Shown one piece after another: positions 6,964 through 52,039 of a DNA stretch of 64,000 nt. Each line of letters opens with the position of its first letter. The first letter of the stretch is position 1. The stretch is from Adhaeribacter aquaticus DSM 16391 (lineage in GTDB: Bacteria; Bacteroidota; Bacteroidia; Cytophagales; Hymenobacteraceae), in assembly GCF_000473365.1 (NCBI RefSeq), contig NZ_KI421517.1, positions 951,363-1,015,362 of the forward strand. Direction: 5' to 3'. The position numbers were made by a program, and so were the translations under genes. Under the pieces are notes generated by a model. That model did not search any database. It had not been told where the DNA came from and saw only the letters and a list, made by a program, of their open reading frames with translations.

Positions 6964-8178
6964 CTATAAGTAATGGTTAAAGTGCAGGCCGTAGCTTTCT
7001 TCCTGCAGTACATTTTTCCATTGTTTTATAATTTTTTTGTATTCTTCCCCAGCCGGACGAATCTTTCGGTTCATATCGTACAGACCTAGAGGGTTGATAT
7101 TGCCGGCATCATTCCGTAAAGCTGAATCCCAGTCCACCTGGTCTGTCAGGCTGTACCACGTAAAACCTACTAACGGAATACCATCGCGTTTTAAGCGTTT
7201 AGCGTTAGCCCATTGCTTCCGCATCCACATAACCGAATTTGGTTCATTCATATTTGTTTCGGTATGCATAACCGGTAACCGGTAACGGCGGTAGTATTGA
7301 TGAGTAATTACGTAGTAACCAAAAATATCACCAGAAGCACTGGTGGTACCATTGGGGTGCACCATGTGTTCATTGGTATAATAATAATCGTTACCCATAA
7401 TACAATGTGCTTTTACCTGGTTTTCCCGGAACCACTCGTATTCTCTTCGGGTCATACCATGGTCCTGCAGATACAAAAGCATTTCAGCTGAAATTGGATA
7501 TCCGTAAGTAAAGTCTAAGGATAAAAACCTTTTCTGGTTCAGGAAGTGCGCCAGTTTCGTGCAACTTGGATCTTCGGCATGAAAATATTCTGAAGATTCA
7601 CTTTGGATGAAGATAGCATCGGGCTGCACACTTAGAATTGCCGCCATGGCCAGCACATTGGCTTTGCACAAGTTTTTCAAGGCAGTTACATACGCCCGAT
7701 CACTGGCCAGGCATTCGTTCCACCAGCCATATTGGGCCGAGAACATAGCCGTAATAAATATTTCATTTATTGGGGTATACAATTGTAAATAAGGAAACCG
7801 ACGCGCAAAAGCCAAGGCATATTCGGCAAAGTATGTCGGGAAATCTGGGTTCTGGAAATTACCTAACCAATCAGGCAAACCAAAATGGCATAGGTCTACG
7901 ATGGGTGTTATTCCCATTTCCTTCATAGCATGGAAGGTGGTATCGGTAAAATCCCAATTATATTTCCCTGGTCCTTCAAAGGTTGAGTATAAGGGTGGTC
8001 CGTACCGCAAAAACTCAATACCCATTTCTTTTACCAGTGTAAAATCTTCTTTCCACAGTTTATAATGACCGCATTTTTCCATTTCATCTACCCGCTTAAA
8101 TTTGCCATTTGGCAGCTTAATGTTGGGGTAGCTGTTTTCAATGCCCGTCGAAAACATAAATTGATTTACTGTTCTCAT
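6964..8178 (-). CDS. family 1 glycoside hydrolase-like protein
   Basis: 404 residues, a cytosolic TIM barrel without signal peptide. The acid/base site of clan GH-A is visible as TPINEIF (Asn138-Glu139) and the nucleophile as HTETN (Glu307), a variant of the usual ITENG of beta-glucosidases. An aromatic aglycone-site segment 'TWYSLTDQVDW' matches the GH1 'WSLLDNFEW' element. It is shorter than classical GH1 enzymes (about 450) and resembles the 'family 1 glycosylhydrolase' group sometimes fused to dTDP-rhamnose reductase-like domains. Likely hydrolyses a beta-glycoside; substrate unknown. It has its own terminator and no sugar importer next to it. Confidence 0.82.
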   Translation of the reverse strand: MRTVNQFMFSTGIENSYPNIKLPNGKFKRVDEMEKCGHYKLWKEDFTLVKEMGIEFLRYGPPLYSTFEGPGKYNWDFTDTTFHAMKEMGITPIVDLCHFGLPDWLGNFQNPDFPTYFAEYALAFARRFPYLQLYTPINEIFITAMFSAQYGWWNECLASDRAYVTALKNLCKANVLAMAAILSVQPDAIFIQSESSEYFHAEDPSCTKLAHFLNQKRFLSLDFTYGYPISAEMLLYLQDHGMTRREYEWFRENQVKAHCIMGNDYYYTNEHMVHPNGTTSASGDIFGYYVITHQYYRRYRLPVMHTETNMNEPNSVMWMRKQWANAKRLKRDGIPLVGFTWYSLTDQVDWDSALRNDAGNINPLGLYDMNRKIRPAGEEYKKIIKQWKNVLQEESYGLHFNHYL

Positions 8179-8482: not shown

Positions 8483-8976
8483 TTACCTGACTATCCGAAA
8501 GGCAAGATTTAGACGAGGGGCAATAGATTTAGTTGTTTTAGAAATCTGGTGCTGCCAGAAATGCTGCGTAGTTCGCTGCATTACCACTAAGCTTCCGGAG
8601 GATAATAGTAAAGACATCCTGGGCTGGTTTTGATTTGTTTTATGCCGGAAAACAAATCAAAACCAGCCCATACTATCTTGCCCGCTGCGGTAATAATTTG
8701 AAGCAACAGTATTAAAACTTATACCAACAGATATTTCTAATACTTTTTTGATATTTTACAAGATAGGTTTCCAAGGTAAAGATCATTAATGAAGTTAAAG
8801 TCTTGATATGCTTTTCCGGAATCACCGTACCAGGCGGTTAGGCGCGGGAAAAGCTCTTCCTGACCAAATATCTTGATTTTATCTTGCTGCCAGGCGGTGG
8901 TAGTTAGCAACGCTTCCAGAGAAATTATGACTTTGTACGGCGGTGAAAAACCGGGAGCAATAATGCTCCTCTGCAT
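8483..8976 (-). pseudogene. alkB: alkB-family 2-oxoglutarate DNA repair dioxygenase, decayed
   Basis: Read on the minus strand, three pieces of an AlkB protein are present in order. Piece 1 (8976 to about 8806) gives 'TAWQQDKIKIFGQ' and 'FPRLTAWYGDSGKAY'. After a -1 type frameshift, piece 2 gives 'PWKPIL-stop-NIKKVLEISVG' and 'ISFNTVASNYYRSGQDSMGW', with a TAA at 8756-8758. Piece 3 gives 'FRHKTNQNQPRMSLLL', 'SSGSLVVMQRTTQHFWQH' and 'APRLNLAFRIVR', ending at a TAA at 8483-8485. Pieces 2 and 3 share a frame but are joined through an in-frame TGA (8657-8659). The HSDDE iron-ligand segment and about 20 following residues expected between 'SMGW' and 'FRHK' are gone. Several independent lesions make a sequencing error unlikely. 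The intact family member would oxidatively demethylate alkylated DNA; its divergent neighbour ogt is also an alkylation-repair gene. Confidence 0.9.
8621..8669. repeat. perfect 21-bp palindrome inside the alkB pseudogene
   Basis: Arms 8621-8641 and 8649-8669 are perfect reverse complements around a 7-base loop. No T-run follows, so it is not a normal terminator. One arm is genuine alkB coding sequence (KTNQNQP); the other occupies the place where the HSDDE region should be, which suggests it was copied from the first arm during a replication template switch. Confidence 0.9.
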
Positions 8977-9063
8977 ACTACATATTTAGCTTCTCGGAAC
9001 TTTCTGGCCCACTCAAATCTCCAATAAAATTGTTTTGCTAACTTTAGGCCTATACACCTGGCC

Positions 9064-9561
9064 ATGGATCCCTTACACCAAGCTTATTTTTCTTCCCCAA
9101 TTGGCACCATCATTATTTCTGCTACAGCAGCTGCCTTAATATCTGTACTTTTTACAGAAGAAGCTCCGCAGGTTAATTCTCCTGATTTACCGGTCTGCCT
9201 GCAAGATGGGTTACAGCAACTAACAGAATATTTCTCGGGCAATAGAAAAACATTCGATTTACCTCTCCATTCCGGCGGAACTGCTTTTCAGGAAACTGTT
9301 TGGCAACAGTTATCTCATATTCCTTTTGGGCAAACCCTCTCCTATTACAGTTTATCATCTCAGTTAGGCAATGTAGCTGCTATAAGAGCCGTAGGTAGCG
9401 CCAATGGTAAAAACCAACTGCTGTTAATTCGGCCTTGCCACCGCGTTATTGGTTCTAATGGGCAATTAGTAGGTTATGCCGGTAGCTTATGGCGGAAAAA
9501 ATGGCTACTGGAGCATGAACGTAAAGTGATGGGTACGCATCAGTTGAATTTATTTGGGTAA
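9064..9561 (+). CDS. ogt: methylated-DNA-[protein]-cysteine S-methyltransferase
   Basis: 165 residues. The active-site motif IRPCHRVI (Cys125) and the helix-turn-helix/Asn-hinge region 'AVGSANGKN' are intact, together with the N-terminal ribonuclease-like domain. It removes methyl groups from O6-methylguanine in a suicide reaction. The protein ends in HQLNLFG; residues 160-164 (QLNLF) closely match the bacterial sliding-clamp binding consensus QL[SD]LF. The gene is divergent from the alkB pseudogene, with 87 bases between the starts. The start ATG at 9064 is the only one ahead of the conserved 'YFSSPIGTIIISAT' strand. A near-consensus TAACTTTA box lies at 9039-9046. Confidence 0.93.
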   Translation: MDPLHQAYFSSPIGTIIISATAAALISVLFTEEAPQVNSPDLPVCLQDGLQQLTEYFSGNRKTFDLPLHSGGTAFQETVWQQLSHIPFGQTLSYYSLSSQLGNVAAIRAVGSANGKNQLLLIRPCHRVIGSNGQLVGYAGSLWRKKWLLEHERKVMGTHQLNLFG

Positions 9562-9672: not shown

Positions 9673-10929
9673 TCATTTATTTGAGTTGTTATTAAGAAAA
9701 TAACTTACCTGCAATTGGGTTGCTTTAGTTTGCCAGCTAAAACTAGTATAGTTCGTAATGGGTGTTTTAATTGTTTGCAATAAAGCTATTTCTACTTTGT
9801 TGTTGATAGATACTCCGGATCGCAATACTCCCGAAAACCAAACCGGCACAAACTTATAGGGCGAATCTTGGTACATTTTTTTTTCTCCATTGGTTTGAAG
9901 AATAAGCAGGTAAGATTCATTATTGGAGTATATAGAATAATTCACCATTCCCCCACCGCCTATATAAAGTTTGAAGTTATTTTTATTATAAATATTCCAT
10001 ATTAATTGAGGAGCAACTGAGACATTTAGTTGAGTTAGTCGGTAACCTCTATACTCTGTTTCAAATTGATATTTTCCGCCTGTAAAAGAAGCTTCTCCTC
10101 TAAGGAAGAAACGTTGTACATTAGGATTAAAAAAAACATCTCTTCCCAAAACTACCTTAGGGAAATATGATAGTTTACTCTGTTGATTATACGCAAAAGT
10201 AATATTGCCTTCCACATCCATAACAGCCCTGTTCAAACCAGCGCCAATAAAGGATCTGTGACTTAATCTAATCTTAATTGCCTGCTTTATTTCTTCTACA
10301 CTCAAACCATTGATGCGACTAACTATATCTATCATATCATTGGCTACATATTCTGATGATGCTATCTTACGTTTTAATTCCGGAGAATTGTCATAAAAAG
10401 GTACAGCTGCTATCCCAAGCTGCCCTACATAAATTCTTGATGTTTTTATTGCTTTATCTATCCGGAACCTTCTGTAAAATAGCTCCTGTGGGGTTGTATC
10501 ATTTTTTTTCTGAATAAAAAATCGGGTCTTCCAATTATCTGTATAAGAAAATAGCGCCAGATTCTTTCCTTTCTGTAACACCTTTAAGAAAAAGGTCCCG
10601 ACGACAGTAGAGGTATCTATACCATTTGACAAATCATTTAATTCGGTTTTATCGTTTGTTATTCTTCCGGCATATTGCTGATAAGCTTCTACGTTTTCTA
10701 TTGAAAAATATTTTGTATTTTCCGGAAAGAACACTTTTTCATCTTTCTCCTCTAAAGACTTTTTAAAGGTGAACGTTTTAGGGTTCTGATCCCATTCACG
10801 GTAGTTGATATACCCAATTAAGGTATCTCCCTGAGCATTTACAACTAATCCTTTCTTATAATTAGCTTGCGAAAATAAAATTGCCGGATAAAAAAAGCAG
10901 CCAATTAAAACAGTTATAATATATTTCAT
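9673..10929 (-). CDS. uncharacterised secreted barrel-type protein, paralogue A
   Basis: 418 residues, signal peptide ending LFSQ, then the family signature 'ANYKKGLVVNAQGDTL' and 'INYREWDQNPKTF'. The N-terminal half (about 20-200) is a soluble beta-rich domain with the recurring 'LQKGK', 'LFSYTDNWKTRFFIQ' and 'ELFYRRFR' segments. After a helical hinge with 'VSRINGLSVEEIKQ', the C-terminal half reads as alternating strands of an outer-membrane barrel, typical of Bacteroidota PorT/OmpW-like domains. It is last in the tandem array, 46 bases after paralogue B. Most divergent of the four. Function unknown. Confidence 0.8.
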   Translation of the reverse strand: MKYIITVLIGCFFYPAILFSQANYKKGLVVNAQGDTLIGYINYREWDQNPKTFTFKKSLEEKDEKVFFPENTKYFSIENVEAYQQYAGRITNDKTELNDLSNGIDTSTVVGTFFLKVLQKGKNLALFSYTDNWKTRFFIQKKNDTTPQELFYRRFRIDKAIKTSRIYVGQLGIAAVPFYDNSPELKRKIASSEYVANDMIDIVSRINGLSVEEIKQAIKIRLSHRSFIGAGLNRAVMDVEGNITFAYNQQSKLSYFPKVVLGRDVFFNPNVQRFFLRGEASFTGGKYQFETEYRGYRLTQLNVSVAPQLIWNIYNKNNFKLYIGGGGMVNYSIYSNNESYLLILQTNGEKKMYQDSPYKFVPVWFSGVLRSGVSINNKVEIALLQTIKTPITNYTSFSWQTKATQLQVSYFLNNNSNK

Positions 10930-10975
10930 AAATAAACACCTGGAAAGACTTGTAAACTTTTTAGTATAATCAGAC

Positions 10976-12232
10976 CTATTTCTTCTTTCTATTAAACAGA
11001 TAATTCACCTCTGCCTGAACCGGACTGTACTTAAAAAAAGTATTTAAGCTTGGCTTTAGATATAGTACAGAAAAGTCTACTTTGTTGTTAATAATAATGC
11101 CTGTTCTTAATAAATAGCCATAATAAAGGGGCGGTAAAAAATTAAGTTCGGATATACTATTGGAACTAGTGTTCTGGTTTGCCTTTATGCTGGCAGTGGT
11201 GCTTTTATCATAGGAGGCAATAGTATAGAAACCACCTCCGCCTATGTTAAACTTGAATTTTTCCGAATTATAGAAGTTATAAAGCAGCTGCGGCGCAATA
11301 TTAAACGTGCTTTGCTTTATATTAAACTTTACTACCCCATCCTCAGAACTAACATTGAAAGAAGCCAGCGCATACGAGAATTGGAACCGTAAAAAGAATT
11401 GCTGTACATCCGGATTAAGATAAGTATCGGCCCCAAAAGAGACTTTTGGTAAAAGAGAGGTATAGGAAGGTTTATCTAAAGTTAGCGCCCATACCGGTTC
11501 TGCCTGCAGTTGCGTCCGGCTTAAGCCAGCTCCGGCAAAATACCTCATCTTCGGGCTCCCTGCACTCCTGGATATTTTTAGTTCTTCTTTACTTACATGA
11601 TTTATTAGGCTAACTACTTGTAAAAGATCTGCCTCGCTATAGGCAGCCAGTTCTATCCGGCGCTTTAATTCGGGCGTAGATACGCCAAATTCAGTAGCCG
11701 CATTCCAAAGCTGCGGTGCATATATTTTTAAGTTTATAATGGCGTTGTTTCCGTTATCGGTTTGGGAGCGGTACCGCCGAAACTGCAGCTCCTGAGGCGC
11801 CAATTCATTAGCCTTCTGCAAAAAGAACCGATTCTTTAATTCATCCCGGTAAGAGTAAAGCGACACGGATTTACCTCGTTGTAAAAGCTTCAGGAAAACA
11901 GAGACTTTAGCGGTACTGGTATCCGAAGTAATAGCCAGGTCTTTTGTTTCTACATTGCCCATACTAATCCGGCCATCATACTTTTGATAGGCCCCTAATC
12001 CGTCCAAGGCAAAATATTGGATAGTAAGCGGATTGAATTCTTGTACTTTATTTGATTCTAGGCTTTCCTTATAAGAAATCTTTCTGGGATTTTTATCCCA
12101 CTCCCGGTAGTCAATAAATCCGCGAAGGGTATCTCCTTGGGTATTTACCACTAACCCCTTTTTATAATTGGATTGAGCACTAATAAAAAATGGAGAAAGA
12201 AATAAACAGGCAAAAAAACTTAGGCACTTCAT
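10976..12232 (-). CDS. uncharacterised secreted barrel-type protein, paralogue B
   Basis: 418 residues, signal peptide ending FISAQ, then 'SNYKKGLVVNTQGDTLRG' and 'DYREWDKNPR'. It shares with its neighbours 'DTSTAKVSVFLKLLQRGK', 'YSYRDELKNRFFLQ' and 'ELKRRIELAAYSEAD'. A Gly-rich strand segment 'FNIGGGGFYTI' lies in the barrel-like C-terminal half. It follows a 183-base gap with a promoter-like element, so B and A probably form their own two-gene transcript. Closest in sequence to paralogue D by eye. Function unknown. Confidence 0.8.
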   Translation of the reverse strand: MKCLSFFACLFLSPFFISAQSNYKKGLVVNTQGDTLRGFIDYREWDKNPRKISYKESLESNKVQEFNPLTIQYFALDGLGAYQKYDGRISMGNVETKDLAITSDTSTAKVSVFLKLLQRGKSVSLYSYRDELKNRFFLQKANELAPQELQFRRYRSQTDNGNNAIINLKIYAPQLWNAATEFGVSTPELKRRIELAAYSEADLLQVVSLINHVSKEELKISRSAGSPKMRYFAGAGLSRTQLQAEPVWALTLDKPSYTSLLPKVSFGADTYLNPDVQQFFLRFQFSYALASFNVSSEDGVVKFNIKQSTFNIAPQLLYNFYNSEKFKFNIGGGGFYTIASYDKSTTASIKANQNTSSNSISELNFLPPLYYGYLLRTGIIINNKVDFSVLYLKPSLNTFFKYSPVQAEVNYLFNRKKK

Positions 12233-12272
12233 TTAATTCGGCGGTAGTCAGAATATATCTTAAAGAATAAAC

Positions 12273-12304
12273 CAAAGTTACTCTCACTTTCGCAGAAGGC
12301 ACAA
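12273..12304 (-). promoter_or_regulatory. Bacteroidota-type promoter for paralogues B and A
   Basis: On the minus strand TAACTTTG (12273-12280) matches the -7 consensus TAnnTTTG. A TTG at 12302-12304 lies 21 bases upstream as the -33 element. The predicted start is about 37 bases before the paralogue B ATG. Confidence 0.5.
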
Positions 12305-12415
12305 TTTCATTAGGAGAAAAAGTAAATTAGAAATTTTTGCCACTACCTATTTAGCTTTAATTAAATAAGTAAATGGAAGCTTTTAATCAGGCAGGACAGG
12401 TAATTTGTGCAAACT

Positions 12416-13699
12416 TTATCTCTTAAAAAAATAGTTTAGCTCAAGATGAATCATTTGCGATCTAAATTCATAATCACCGTCTGAGGTTAATAAAACAGGT
12501 GAGTAATACAAGGCCGATAAGTCAATTTTTTTATTAATAATCAACCCGGACCTTAATAACACACCGGCTGTTTTCTTAGGAAAATACTGATAATTTTTCC
12601 GCAGGGTACCTATTTCTTCCTTTTCTGAAGTTAAGTAAGATTTCCTGTAGTCGATATTGGAGTATTCAGAAATATTTGCAAACCCGCCAACTCCTATGTT
12701 AAATTTAAAAATATCTTTATTAAAAATATTATATATTAACTCTGGAGAAAGTGATAAAGTGTTTTGCTGAACTTTTAGATTAGTTAAATACGAATTATAT
12801 ACAGATGTAATTTCTGTTTTGGAGCTTAAAAAGGAAACTTCTCCTCTAAAAAATAATCGTTGGGTATTTCTGTTAAAAAACAAATCAATGCCAGTAGATA
12901 TTTTAGGAGAATACTCTGACTTTCCGGCAAGCTTTAAGTTACCCTGATTTTTAATTCCTGTTACCGTTAAATTACTTCTATTACCCCCAAACCCCAAGAA
13001 AAACCGAGCTTTATTAGGCGTGTTACCCTTGCCGGTAATTACCTCCTGCTTTCCTAGCCCATTGAGTTTATTTAGGATATTTACAAAATCTTTTTTAGCG
13101 TATTCAGCTGATTCAATTTGGTTTTTAAGTGCAGGCGAAACAACCTTCAGGTTATTAGCTAAAAGCCAAAGTTGTCCTTTATATATTCTTGAACTCTGGA
13201 TCTTTCGGATATTAACATCATCATATGTTTGGTAATATTGCCTGAATAATAATTCTGTTGGTTTAACATCGGCATTTTCCTGAATAAAAAACCGGGTTTT
13301 AATATTATCCGTGTAAGAAAGTAAATTTACCCTTTCCCCCTTTTGGACAATTCTGATAAATCTATTTGCTTTGCTCGTGGTTGTATCAATATCTACAGAC
13401 AGGTGAGTCATGTTTATTGGGTCCATGGTAACCCGCCCAACGTATCTTTGATAGGCATCCAAACCCGTTATTTCAAAATAGTTAGCCGTTTCGTTAGTAA
13501 ATTCAATAGGATTAGTATCGTTCAAATTCTTTTTATAATAAACTGATACAGGATCACTGCGCCATTCCTGATAATCAATAAATCCTCTTAAAGTATCTCC
13601 CTGAATATTTACTACCAGCCCTTTTTTATAATTGGATTGGGAGAAGGAAATTGTGGGTAGAAAAATGCTCCAAAAAAGAACGGCTAAGAAAAATCTCAC
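12416..13699 (-). CDS. uncharacterised secreted barrel-type protein, paralogue C
   Basis: 427 residues, signal peptide ending ISFSQ, then 'SNYKKGLVVNIQGDTLRG' and 'DYQEWRSDPVSVYY'. It keeps the shared 'DTTTSKANRFIRIVQKGE', 'SYTDNIKTRFFIQ' and 'ELLFRQY' blocks. The C-terminal half has barrel strands ending in 'HLELNYFFKR', a typical outer-membrane C-terminal strand with terminal aromatics. It follows paralogue D by 47 bases and is probably cotranscribed with it. Function unknown. Confidence 0.8.
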   Translation of the reverse strand: MRFFLAVLFWSIFLPTISFSQSNYKKGLVVNIQGDTLRGFIDYQEWRSDPVSVYYKKNLNDTNPIEFTNETANYFEITGLDAYQRYVGRVTMDPINMTHLSVDIDTTTSKANRFIRIVQKGERVNLLSYTDNIKTRFFIQENADVKPTELLFRQYYQTYDDVNIRKIQSSRIYKGQLWLLANNLKVVSPALKNQIESAEYAKKDFVNILNKLNGLGKQEVITGKGNTPNKARFFLGFGGNRSNLTVTGIKNQGNLKLAGKSEYSPKISTGIDLFFNRNTQRLFFRGEVSFLSSKTEITSVYNSYLTNLKVQQNTLSLSPELIYNIFNKDIFKFNIGVGGFANISEYSNIDYRKSYLTSEKEEIGTLRKNYQYFPKKTAGVLLRSGLIINKKIDLSALYYSPVLLTSDGDYEFRSQMIHLELNYFFKR

Positions 13700-13746
13700 A
13701 AATAATTATATAAAGGACGAAAAAATAAAAAGGAATTGGCTATATC

Positions 13747-14991
13747 TTATTGCTTTTTATTAAATAGATAGTTCACCTCAAAATGAACAGTATTAACTTT
13801 AAAAATTGCTAAGGTAGATGCCGGAAAGTATAGAACTGATAAATCTACTTTATTATTAACCATAATACCTGTTCTTACCATAAAGCCATACCATAAAGTT
13901 TTATAATAGTAAAGGTCATTTCTTTCCGTAGTAGAAACTACTTTTCCTTCGGAGTTTTTAATTTCTCTTTTAAATTGATTTTTGGGGTAAGAAGAATAAT
14001 TGAATACAACCCCTCCGCCTACATTGAATTTAAAGTTTTCTTTATTGTATACATTAAACAGAACTTGCGGGAGCGCCGAAATACTATTTTGGTTCAAGGT
14101 ATATTCAGCATTTTCTGAGGCGAACCTGAAACTAGCCATAGAGTAAGATAATTGGCCTCTCAAAATCACCCTTTGTACATCCGGATTTAAGAAAGCATCT
14201 GCTCCTATCGATACCTTTGGCATATAAGATACTTCCGCCGGATTATTTATCGAGGACATAATACTATTTGCTGATTTAAAAGAAGACTTGTTGATGCCAA
14301 CTCCGGCAAAAAATCGTGTTTTGGAGCTTGTAACCTTACTGTTGGCCAACTCCTGCTTACTTATATTATTAATCCGGCTAACAATCTTTAGTAAATCAGA
14401 TTCTGTGTATTGAGCAAACTCAACCTGACGCTTTAACTCAGGTGTACCCTGGTTATGGGCATTGGCCACATTCCAAAGCTGAGCAGCATAAATTTTAGTA
14501 TTAGTTACTTCTGTTTTACCATTGTTAGTTAAGTACCTTCTGAATATTAATTCTTCTGGCTTTGCAGCATTTTGCTGCTTTAAGAAAAACCGAACCTTTA
14601 CTTCATCCCGGTAAGAGTAGAGGGCAACGTTCTTACCGTTCTGCAATATTTTTAGAAATGCGGTAACGGTTGCTGTACTGGTATCAATATCAGTGGAGAG
14701 CCTACGGGCATCCACTTTGTTCATGCTTATACGGCCCTGATAACGTTCGTATGCTGCCATCCCATCTATCGCAAAATAGGTACTGGTCTTTGGTGTAAAT
14801 TCCAGGATACTACCTGCTTCAGAAGATTTAAAAGAAAAAGATCTTGGGTTCTGATCCCATTCCCGGTAATCAACAAAACCCCTAAGCGTATCTCCCTGCG
14901 TATTAACAACCAATCCTTTTTTATAGTTGGATTGAGCTTTTATAAAAAATGGGATAAAAAGAAAAATAACGAGGGTATAGCAGTGTTTCAT
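13747..14991 (-). CDS. uncharacterised secreted barrel-type protein, paralogue D
   Basis: 414 residues, signal peptide ending FIKAQ, then 'SNYKKGLVVNTQGDTLRG' and 'DYREWDQNPRSFSF'. Shared blocks: 'DTSTATVTAFLKILQNGK', 'YSYRDEVKVRFFLKQ', 'ELIFRRYL', 'SRINNISKQELANS'. It ends with the barrel strand 'VHFEVNYLFNKKQ'. It starts 58 bases after the kynU stop on the same strand with no obvious terminator between, so it may be read from the kynU transcript. First gene of the four-gene array. Function unknown. Confidence 0.8.
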   Translation of the reverse strand: MKHCYTLVIFLFIPFFIKAQSNYKKGLVVNTQGDTLRGFVDYREWDQNPRSFSFKSSEAGSILEFTPKTSTYFAIDGMAAYERYQGRISMNKVDARRLSTDIDTSTATVTAFLKILQNGKNVALYSYRDEVKVRFFLKQQNAAKPEELIFRRYLTNNGKTEVTNTKIYAAQLWNVANAHNQGTPELKRQVEFAQYTESDLLKIVSRINNISKQELANSKVTSSKTRFFAGVGINKSSFKSANSIMSSINNPAEVSYMPKVSIGADAFLNPDVQRVILRGQLSYSMASFRFASENAEYTLNQNSISALPQVLFNVYNKENFKFNVGGGVVFNYSSYPKNQFKREIKNSEGKVVSTTERNDLYYYKTLWYGFMVRTGIMVNNKVDLSVLYFPASTLAIFKVNTVHFEVNYLFNKKQ

Positions 14992-51988: not shown

Positions 51989-52039
51989 ATAAAAAGCAGA
52001 AGCGCCATTCAATTATTGAATGGCGCTTCTGCTTTTTAT
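51989..52039. terminator. bidirectional terminator, msrC / psd
   Basis: Perfect 24-bp stem (51989-52012 with 52016-52039), the longest in the window, with A/T-rich outer ends between convergent genes. Confidence 0.92.

Follow-up and report, generated by a model that had tools for sequence, protein, structure and literature searches.

Beside a divergently oriented, intact ogt, Adhaeribacter aquaticus has a decayed alkB with a probable template-switch scar

What did the minus strand beside ogt once encode in Adhaeribacter aquaticus DSM 16391, and what broke it? The stretch analyzed, hereafter the window, is 64,000 nucleotides of a 5.17-Mb genome (four contigs, 99.34% completeness) that we compared with those of seven other Adhaeribacter species. 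The initial annotation had proposed a two-gene alkylation-repair locus in which alkB died recently next to a divergent ogt, and expected both that the broken pieces would resemble AlkB proteins of relatives and that sister genomes would have an intact alkB divergent from ogt. We favor, with a probability of about 0.7, the reading that the decayed alkB was, in an ancestral Adhaeribacter, the divergent partner of ogt in a pair of direct-reversal repair genes and that its scar is that of a template switch.

The minus strand from 8483 to 8990 spells out AlkB blocks in order, including PRLTAWYGD, FRHK, and TTQHFWQH, and closes with a TAA (8483–8485). A profile was built from 26 intact AlkB rows of 23 related genomes (three represented twice; at least one row from outside the family), drawn from the 28 of 60 loci that passed a script filter reading the given strand only, and searched against every stop-to-stop piece of 20 aa or longer from the six reading frames of the whole window (1,761 in all). 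Three pieces are significant, all on the minus strand between 8486 and 8985 and in the order proposed at the outset; the next-best piece has an E-value of 4.5. Piece 1 (AWQQDKIKIFG...PRLTAWYGD; 8740–8985) corresponds to profile positions 14–64 (E = 6.9e-14), piece 2 (SFNTVASNYYRSGQDSMGW; 8660–8755) to positions 81–110 (E = 7.9e-9), and piece 3 (FRHK...RLNLAFRIVR; 8486–8656) to positions 135–190 (E = 1.6e-19). The expected similarity is thus present in all three pieces, and a tblastn search with a congener AlkB likewise matches the locus (E = 6e-29). Family similarity spans the domain, with PF13532 itself matching the last piece only (32.8 bits; cutoff of 31.2), and NCBIfam returned no match for that piece, the sole one submitted. 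Similarity extends to about 8985–8990. On the basis of profile hits, tblastn, and DNA alignment, 8483–8990 is an alkB pseudogene and the positional ortholog of the 194-aa AlkB of congeners. A small hairpin, GGAGCA-ttat-TGCTCC, is present at 8954–8969, close to the lost start.

The remnant can no longer make the enzyme, with two frame changes, two internal stops, no aligned start codon, and the HxD ligands gone. The in-frame TAA (8756–8758) and the TGA (8657–8659), both on the minus strand, are exactly where the initial annotation had placed them. It had counted a single frameshift; a change of frame is confirmed, but DNA alignment to two congeners reveals two differences in length of a single base each, one near 8902 and the other around 8783/8784, both placed with an uncertainty of a few bases. 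The same alignment has no ATG at the aligned start, and the remnant consequently has no single open frame with a start. The HSDDE of congeners is absent as had been described, and distal QH and RLNLAFR are kept. It was not merely lost, however, because the missing span (profile positions 111–134) is occupied by an arm of an inverted repeat. We judged the remnant against HxD ... H and RxNxTxR, which we take to be the iron-ligand motif of AlkB. Since the HxD segment is missing, the remnant is classed as an AlkB-family pseudogene and not as a functional member.

The divergent neighbor is an intact ogt, as had been supposed. This plus-strand gene (9064–9561) encodes a 165-aa O6-methylguanine-DNA methyltransferase that exceeds the cutoffs for both MGMT domains (PF01035, 102 bits; PF02870, 39 bits) and for TIGR00589. 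The protein is 67–72% identical to the Ogts of three congeners, and all four aligned Ogts have PCHRV, presumably the Ogt/MGMT active-site motif. A GH1-like glycoside hydrolase gene (6964–8178, minus strand; PF00232, 51.9 bits) flanks the remnant and is the same neighbor in three congeners, giving an order in the window of ogt, alkB remnant, GH1-like gene, and kmo. In A. rhizoryzae DK36 and A. aerolatus NBRC 106133, an intact 194-aa alkB is divergent from a 165-aa ogt, and the order is kynureninase and ogt on one side of the divergence and alkB, GH1-like gene, and kmo on the other (the names kynureninase and kmo are presumed from the sequences). The comparison of sister genomes therefore came out as predicted, and the intact divergent pair, in the same order in two of the seven other species, supports a repair locus with a dead partner. 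The AlkB (PF13532) of these two species agrees with the remnant in place, orientation, neighbors, and order of blocks, whereas the copy in the window is broken and without the HxD segment. The window genome has no intact alkB at the place of the remnant and no intact ortholog elsewhere, as expected of a unitary pseudogene.

The inverted repeat, which the initial annotation overlooked, is perfect, with arms of 22 bp (8620–8641 and 8649–8670) and a 7-nt loop, and it is located exactly at the missing profile span. Read along the minus strand, the first arm (8649–8670) starts in the MGW codons with an 8-nt seed (8663–8670) and continues with 14 nt that replace HSDDE...FDF; the TGA is inside this arm. 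The loop, CCGGCAT (8642–8648), is within the FRH codons, and the second arm (8620–8641) consists of the codons of KTNQNQP and keeps the register of the C-terminal piece of AlkB. Where congeners have MGW-HSDDEPELG...RRFD-F/L-R, the window has MGW, 14 nt, and then the FRHK block. Together with the preceding 8 nt, these 14 nt form an exact reverse complement of 8620–8641 (22 of 22), such that the new bases are an inverted copy of sequence right beside them. At their outer ends the arms consist of TGGGCTGG, which belongs to the MGW codons and is common to congeners, and CCAGCCCA (8620–8627), which is absent in congeners; the two may have served as a seed. Because no gap interrupts the alignment of the second arm to the AlkB profile, we take this arm to be native and the first arm to be new.

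Neither simulated sequence nor intact alkB genes reach this hairpin size. The longest perfect arm is 13 bp across ten first-order simulations of the window and 11 bp across 60 intact alkB stretches (54 genomes, six represented twice), and the DNA fold z score at the inverted repeat is −8.0. The scar is the second longest perfect hairpin in the window when loops of 3–30 nt are considered. It could be argued that ordinary frame changes and stops killed alkB and that the inverted repeat is a later product of chance or of selection for a terminator or RNA hairpin. Consistent with this, none of the 13 perfect hairpins in the window with arms of at least 12 bp is inside an open frame of at least 120 codons, and six of the 12 other than the scar have the A-rich start and T-rich end of terminator-like sequences. 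Long hairpins are therefore common in noncoding DNA here, and the case for a template switch depends on the location of the repeat and on the AlkB code of its second arm. Both count against a later origin, as the arms are exactly at the missing span and one of them encodes AlkB; the ends of the scar also are without A/T tails, and simulated arms fall short of its length. We regard a later origin as improbable and do not favor a role of the hairpin as a transcription terminator.

A repeat element or MITE was ruled out as the source of the arms. Within the genome, 21 of the 22 arm bases, allowing up to three mismatches, are found at this locus alone, and other genome matches to the 81-nt stretch have E-values of 0.195 or worse. 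An artifact of sequencing or assembly, namely a hairpin chimera accompanied by indel errors, merits thought because palindromes favor such artifacts. It is very unlikely in this case, as several separate lesions are spread over 500 bp of a four-contig, 99.34%-complete genome and the flanking genes are intact.

We suggest that the iron-ligand segment was lost when replication switched template locally, with the match between TGGGCTGG and CCAGCCCA as the seed, and that codons close by were thereby copied in reverse complement into the place of HSDDE...FDF. After synthesizing ...GGGCTGG, the nascent strand would have jumped ∼100 nt ahead (as judged from congeners) to the complementary seed CCAGCCC, where ∼14 nt would have been added in reverse complement to the local codons before the strand went back at CCGGCAT. 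Such a switch would leave the TGA and the inverted repeat, with its 22 perfectly paired bases around a loop of 7 nt, and the second arm would be the probable template of the first.

Template switching is an established mechanism of mutation, as set out in PMC7202029, on the quasipalindrome mutation mechanism of E. coli, and in PMC8794818, on four switch points and the creation of perfect stems. PMC8604942 reports template-switch changes in 39 yeast coding genes. The quasipalindrome and short template-switch mutations covered in the three papers share with the scar a local reverse-complement copy that yields a perfect inverted repeat beside a short inverted match. In contrast to them, the scar is in a naturally dead bacterial repair gene whose ancestor was not observed, and ∼80 nt, as estimated from congeners, were lost. 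The unitary pseudogene and the probable template-switch scar are both of known kinds and occur here in a new place; no title among the papers listed in our literature search concerns this locus.

The history of the first arm can also be told in two steps, in which a plain deletion joined the MGW codons to the FDF codons and the resulting imperfect repeat was later perfected by a small quasipalindrome correction. Within the first arm, TTTTGATTT resembles the FDF codons of congeners (TTCGATTTC/TTCGATTTA), and TTYGATTT occurs in 3.8% of shuffled inserts. Part of the first arm may hence be native, and its likeness to TTCGATTTC makes the two-step deletion a serious rival, to which we attach a small but real chance. 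It needs two events and preexisting complementarity on both sides, and it still ends in template switching, so that it departs from a single switch mainly in the succession of events and less in the mechanism. The alkB of A. rhizoryzae differs from the remnant at 30% of codon positions 1 and 2 and at 57% of position 3. Congener genes are therefore too diverged for the sequence before the event, or its right-hand seed, to be recovered from them. Nor is there a nearer relative among the best 80 of 335 relatives from a scan that may have skipped records close to A. aquaticus itself; in this set, the three congeners (72%, 72%, and 67% identity in Ogt) are followed by Ogts at 53% or lower, including that of A. 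terrigena at 51%.

Patterns of substitution suggest a late death of alkB. Outside the scar (counted without the start codon and without everything between MGW and the GS codons that follow the second arm), the ratio of change at codon positions 1 and 2 to change at position 3 is 0.48 on the branch of the window (bootstrap 0.31–0.73), a 2.4-fold rise over the 0.20 between the alkB genes of congeners. Intact neighbors have higher ratios on the same branch as well (ogt, 0.26 vs. 0.12 between congeners; GH1-like gene, 0.13 vs. 0.07; kmo, 0.20 vs. 0.06). Because the rise in the remnant is similar to theirs, alkB is suggested to have worked for most of the branch. The perfect arms agree with this: zero mismatches in 22 pairs correspond by arithmetic to neutral change at no more than ∼6% of sites after the event (95%), a bound that presumes the arms were not kept alike by repeated switching. 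Conversely, raw differences specific to the window are spread almost evenly over the three codon positions of the remnant (50, 37, and 47), more evenly than in ogt (36, 19, and 50), which allows for a longer decay. The initial proposal of a recent death thus agrees with the ratios and the arms but not with the raw counts. That positions 1 and 2 still change less than position 3 could be taken to mean that the remnant has a residual role under selection, as a short peptide or RNA. This is extremely unlikely given the missing HxD ligands, the lack of an aligned start, and the frame changes, and the low ratio is attributable to constraint before death.

Loss of alkB has apparently also occurred independently in the metagenome-assembled genome RYN_302. 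There, 483 nt separate ogt from the GH1-like gene, as compared to 967 in A. rhizoryzae and 964 in A. aerolatus, and both edges of the alkB region align, with the gene almost wholly gone (1311–1793 of L047); a PF13532 profile search of this genome found no AlkB-like match. The glycoside hydrolase of the window is 86–88% identical to those of A. rhizoryzae, A. aerolatus, and RYN_302, which are 95–97% identical to one another. By pairwise identities of two genes, which stand in for a tree in giving the order of branching, the window lineage is outside these three congeners, implying at least two losses of alkB. It is tempting to generalize that the template switch was the killing blow and that alkB is lost again and again in Adhaeribacter while the adjacent ogt stays, each loss with a scar of its own (an almost complete deletion in RYN_302, an inverted copy in the window), but we advance this only tentatively and consider it doubtful.

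Across relatives, linkage of ogt and alkB is real, yet it is not fixed. The locus in the window has in common with ada-alkB and ogt-alkB direct-reversal loci a gene for an O6-alkylguanine methyltransferase near alkB. Arrangements differ, in that the genes are divergent in the window and two congeners, whereas in three further congeners (G003–G005) the full-length AlkB match has an Ada/Ogt-like match nearby in the same orientation, and those of genus g6 are convergent. Outside the genus, we surveyed linkage at the family ogt loci with the 26 highest scores in a search of 204 genomes. In 13 of these loci, alkB is within 1.5 kb, and all 13 are convergent and belong to g6; they comprise every g6 locus among the 26. 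The other 13, from genera g3 and g2, have no alkB within 1.5 kb. In the family, 178 of 204 genomes, that of A. aquaticus included, match congener AlkB at E ≤ 0.001, so absence of alkB is not rare.

Other repair genes may bear on why the loss was tolerated. The only other PF13532 match in the A. aquaticus genome is a divergent, intact AlkB-like protein of 210 aa (1408–2040 of L001, minus strand), which scores 60.9 bits in one search and 62.8 bits in another; the AlkBs of five congeners with full-length matches score 121–140 bits, and one congener (G006) has a divergent AlkB-like match only (66.7 bits). By eye, the divergent protein keeps HxD, a later H, and the C-terminal arginine motif, and its gene adjoins an ORF resembling a methyltransferase. 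The genome also has a match to PF02245 (198.6 bits), which we take to be an Mpg/AAG-type glycosylase and which is present in seven of eight genomes of the genus, that of A. aquaticus included. With ogt kept, candidate cover by these two proteins may have made loss of alkB tolerable. AlkD was set aside as compensation, as the genome has a weak PF08713 match alone (29.6 bits). Two separate losses beside a kept ogt in one genus raise the question of whether the AlkB-like protein and the PF02245 glycosylase make alkB dispensable. If the template switch is correct, the locus would show cleanly, in a natural genome, how a mutation that breaks a gene can preserve the template it was copied from, and counting perfect inverted repeats in conserved-locus pseudogenes across bacteria could weigh template switching against simple deletion in gene removal.

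Two further features of the window are worth recording. Its longest perfect inverted repeat (51989–52039) has 24-bp arms, a 3-nt loop, and A-rich and T-rich ends like those of a bidirectional terminator. On the minus strand, 9673–14991 contains at least four tandem paralogous ORFs. Two were scanned: the ORF at 9673–10929 has no Pfam or NCBIfam match and that at 13747–14991 has a subthreshold Pfam match only. The paralogs are 414–427 aa in length and have a common start, NYKKGLVVN.QGDTL.
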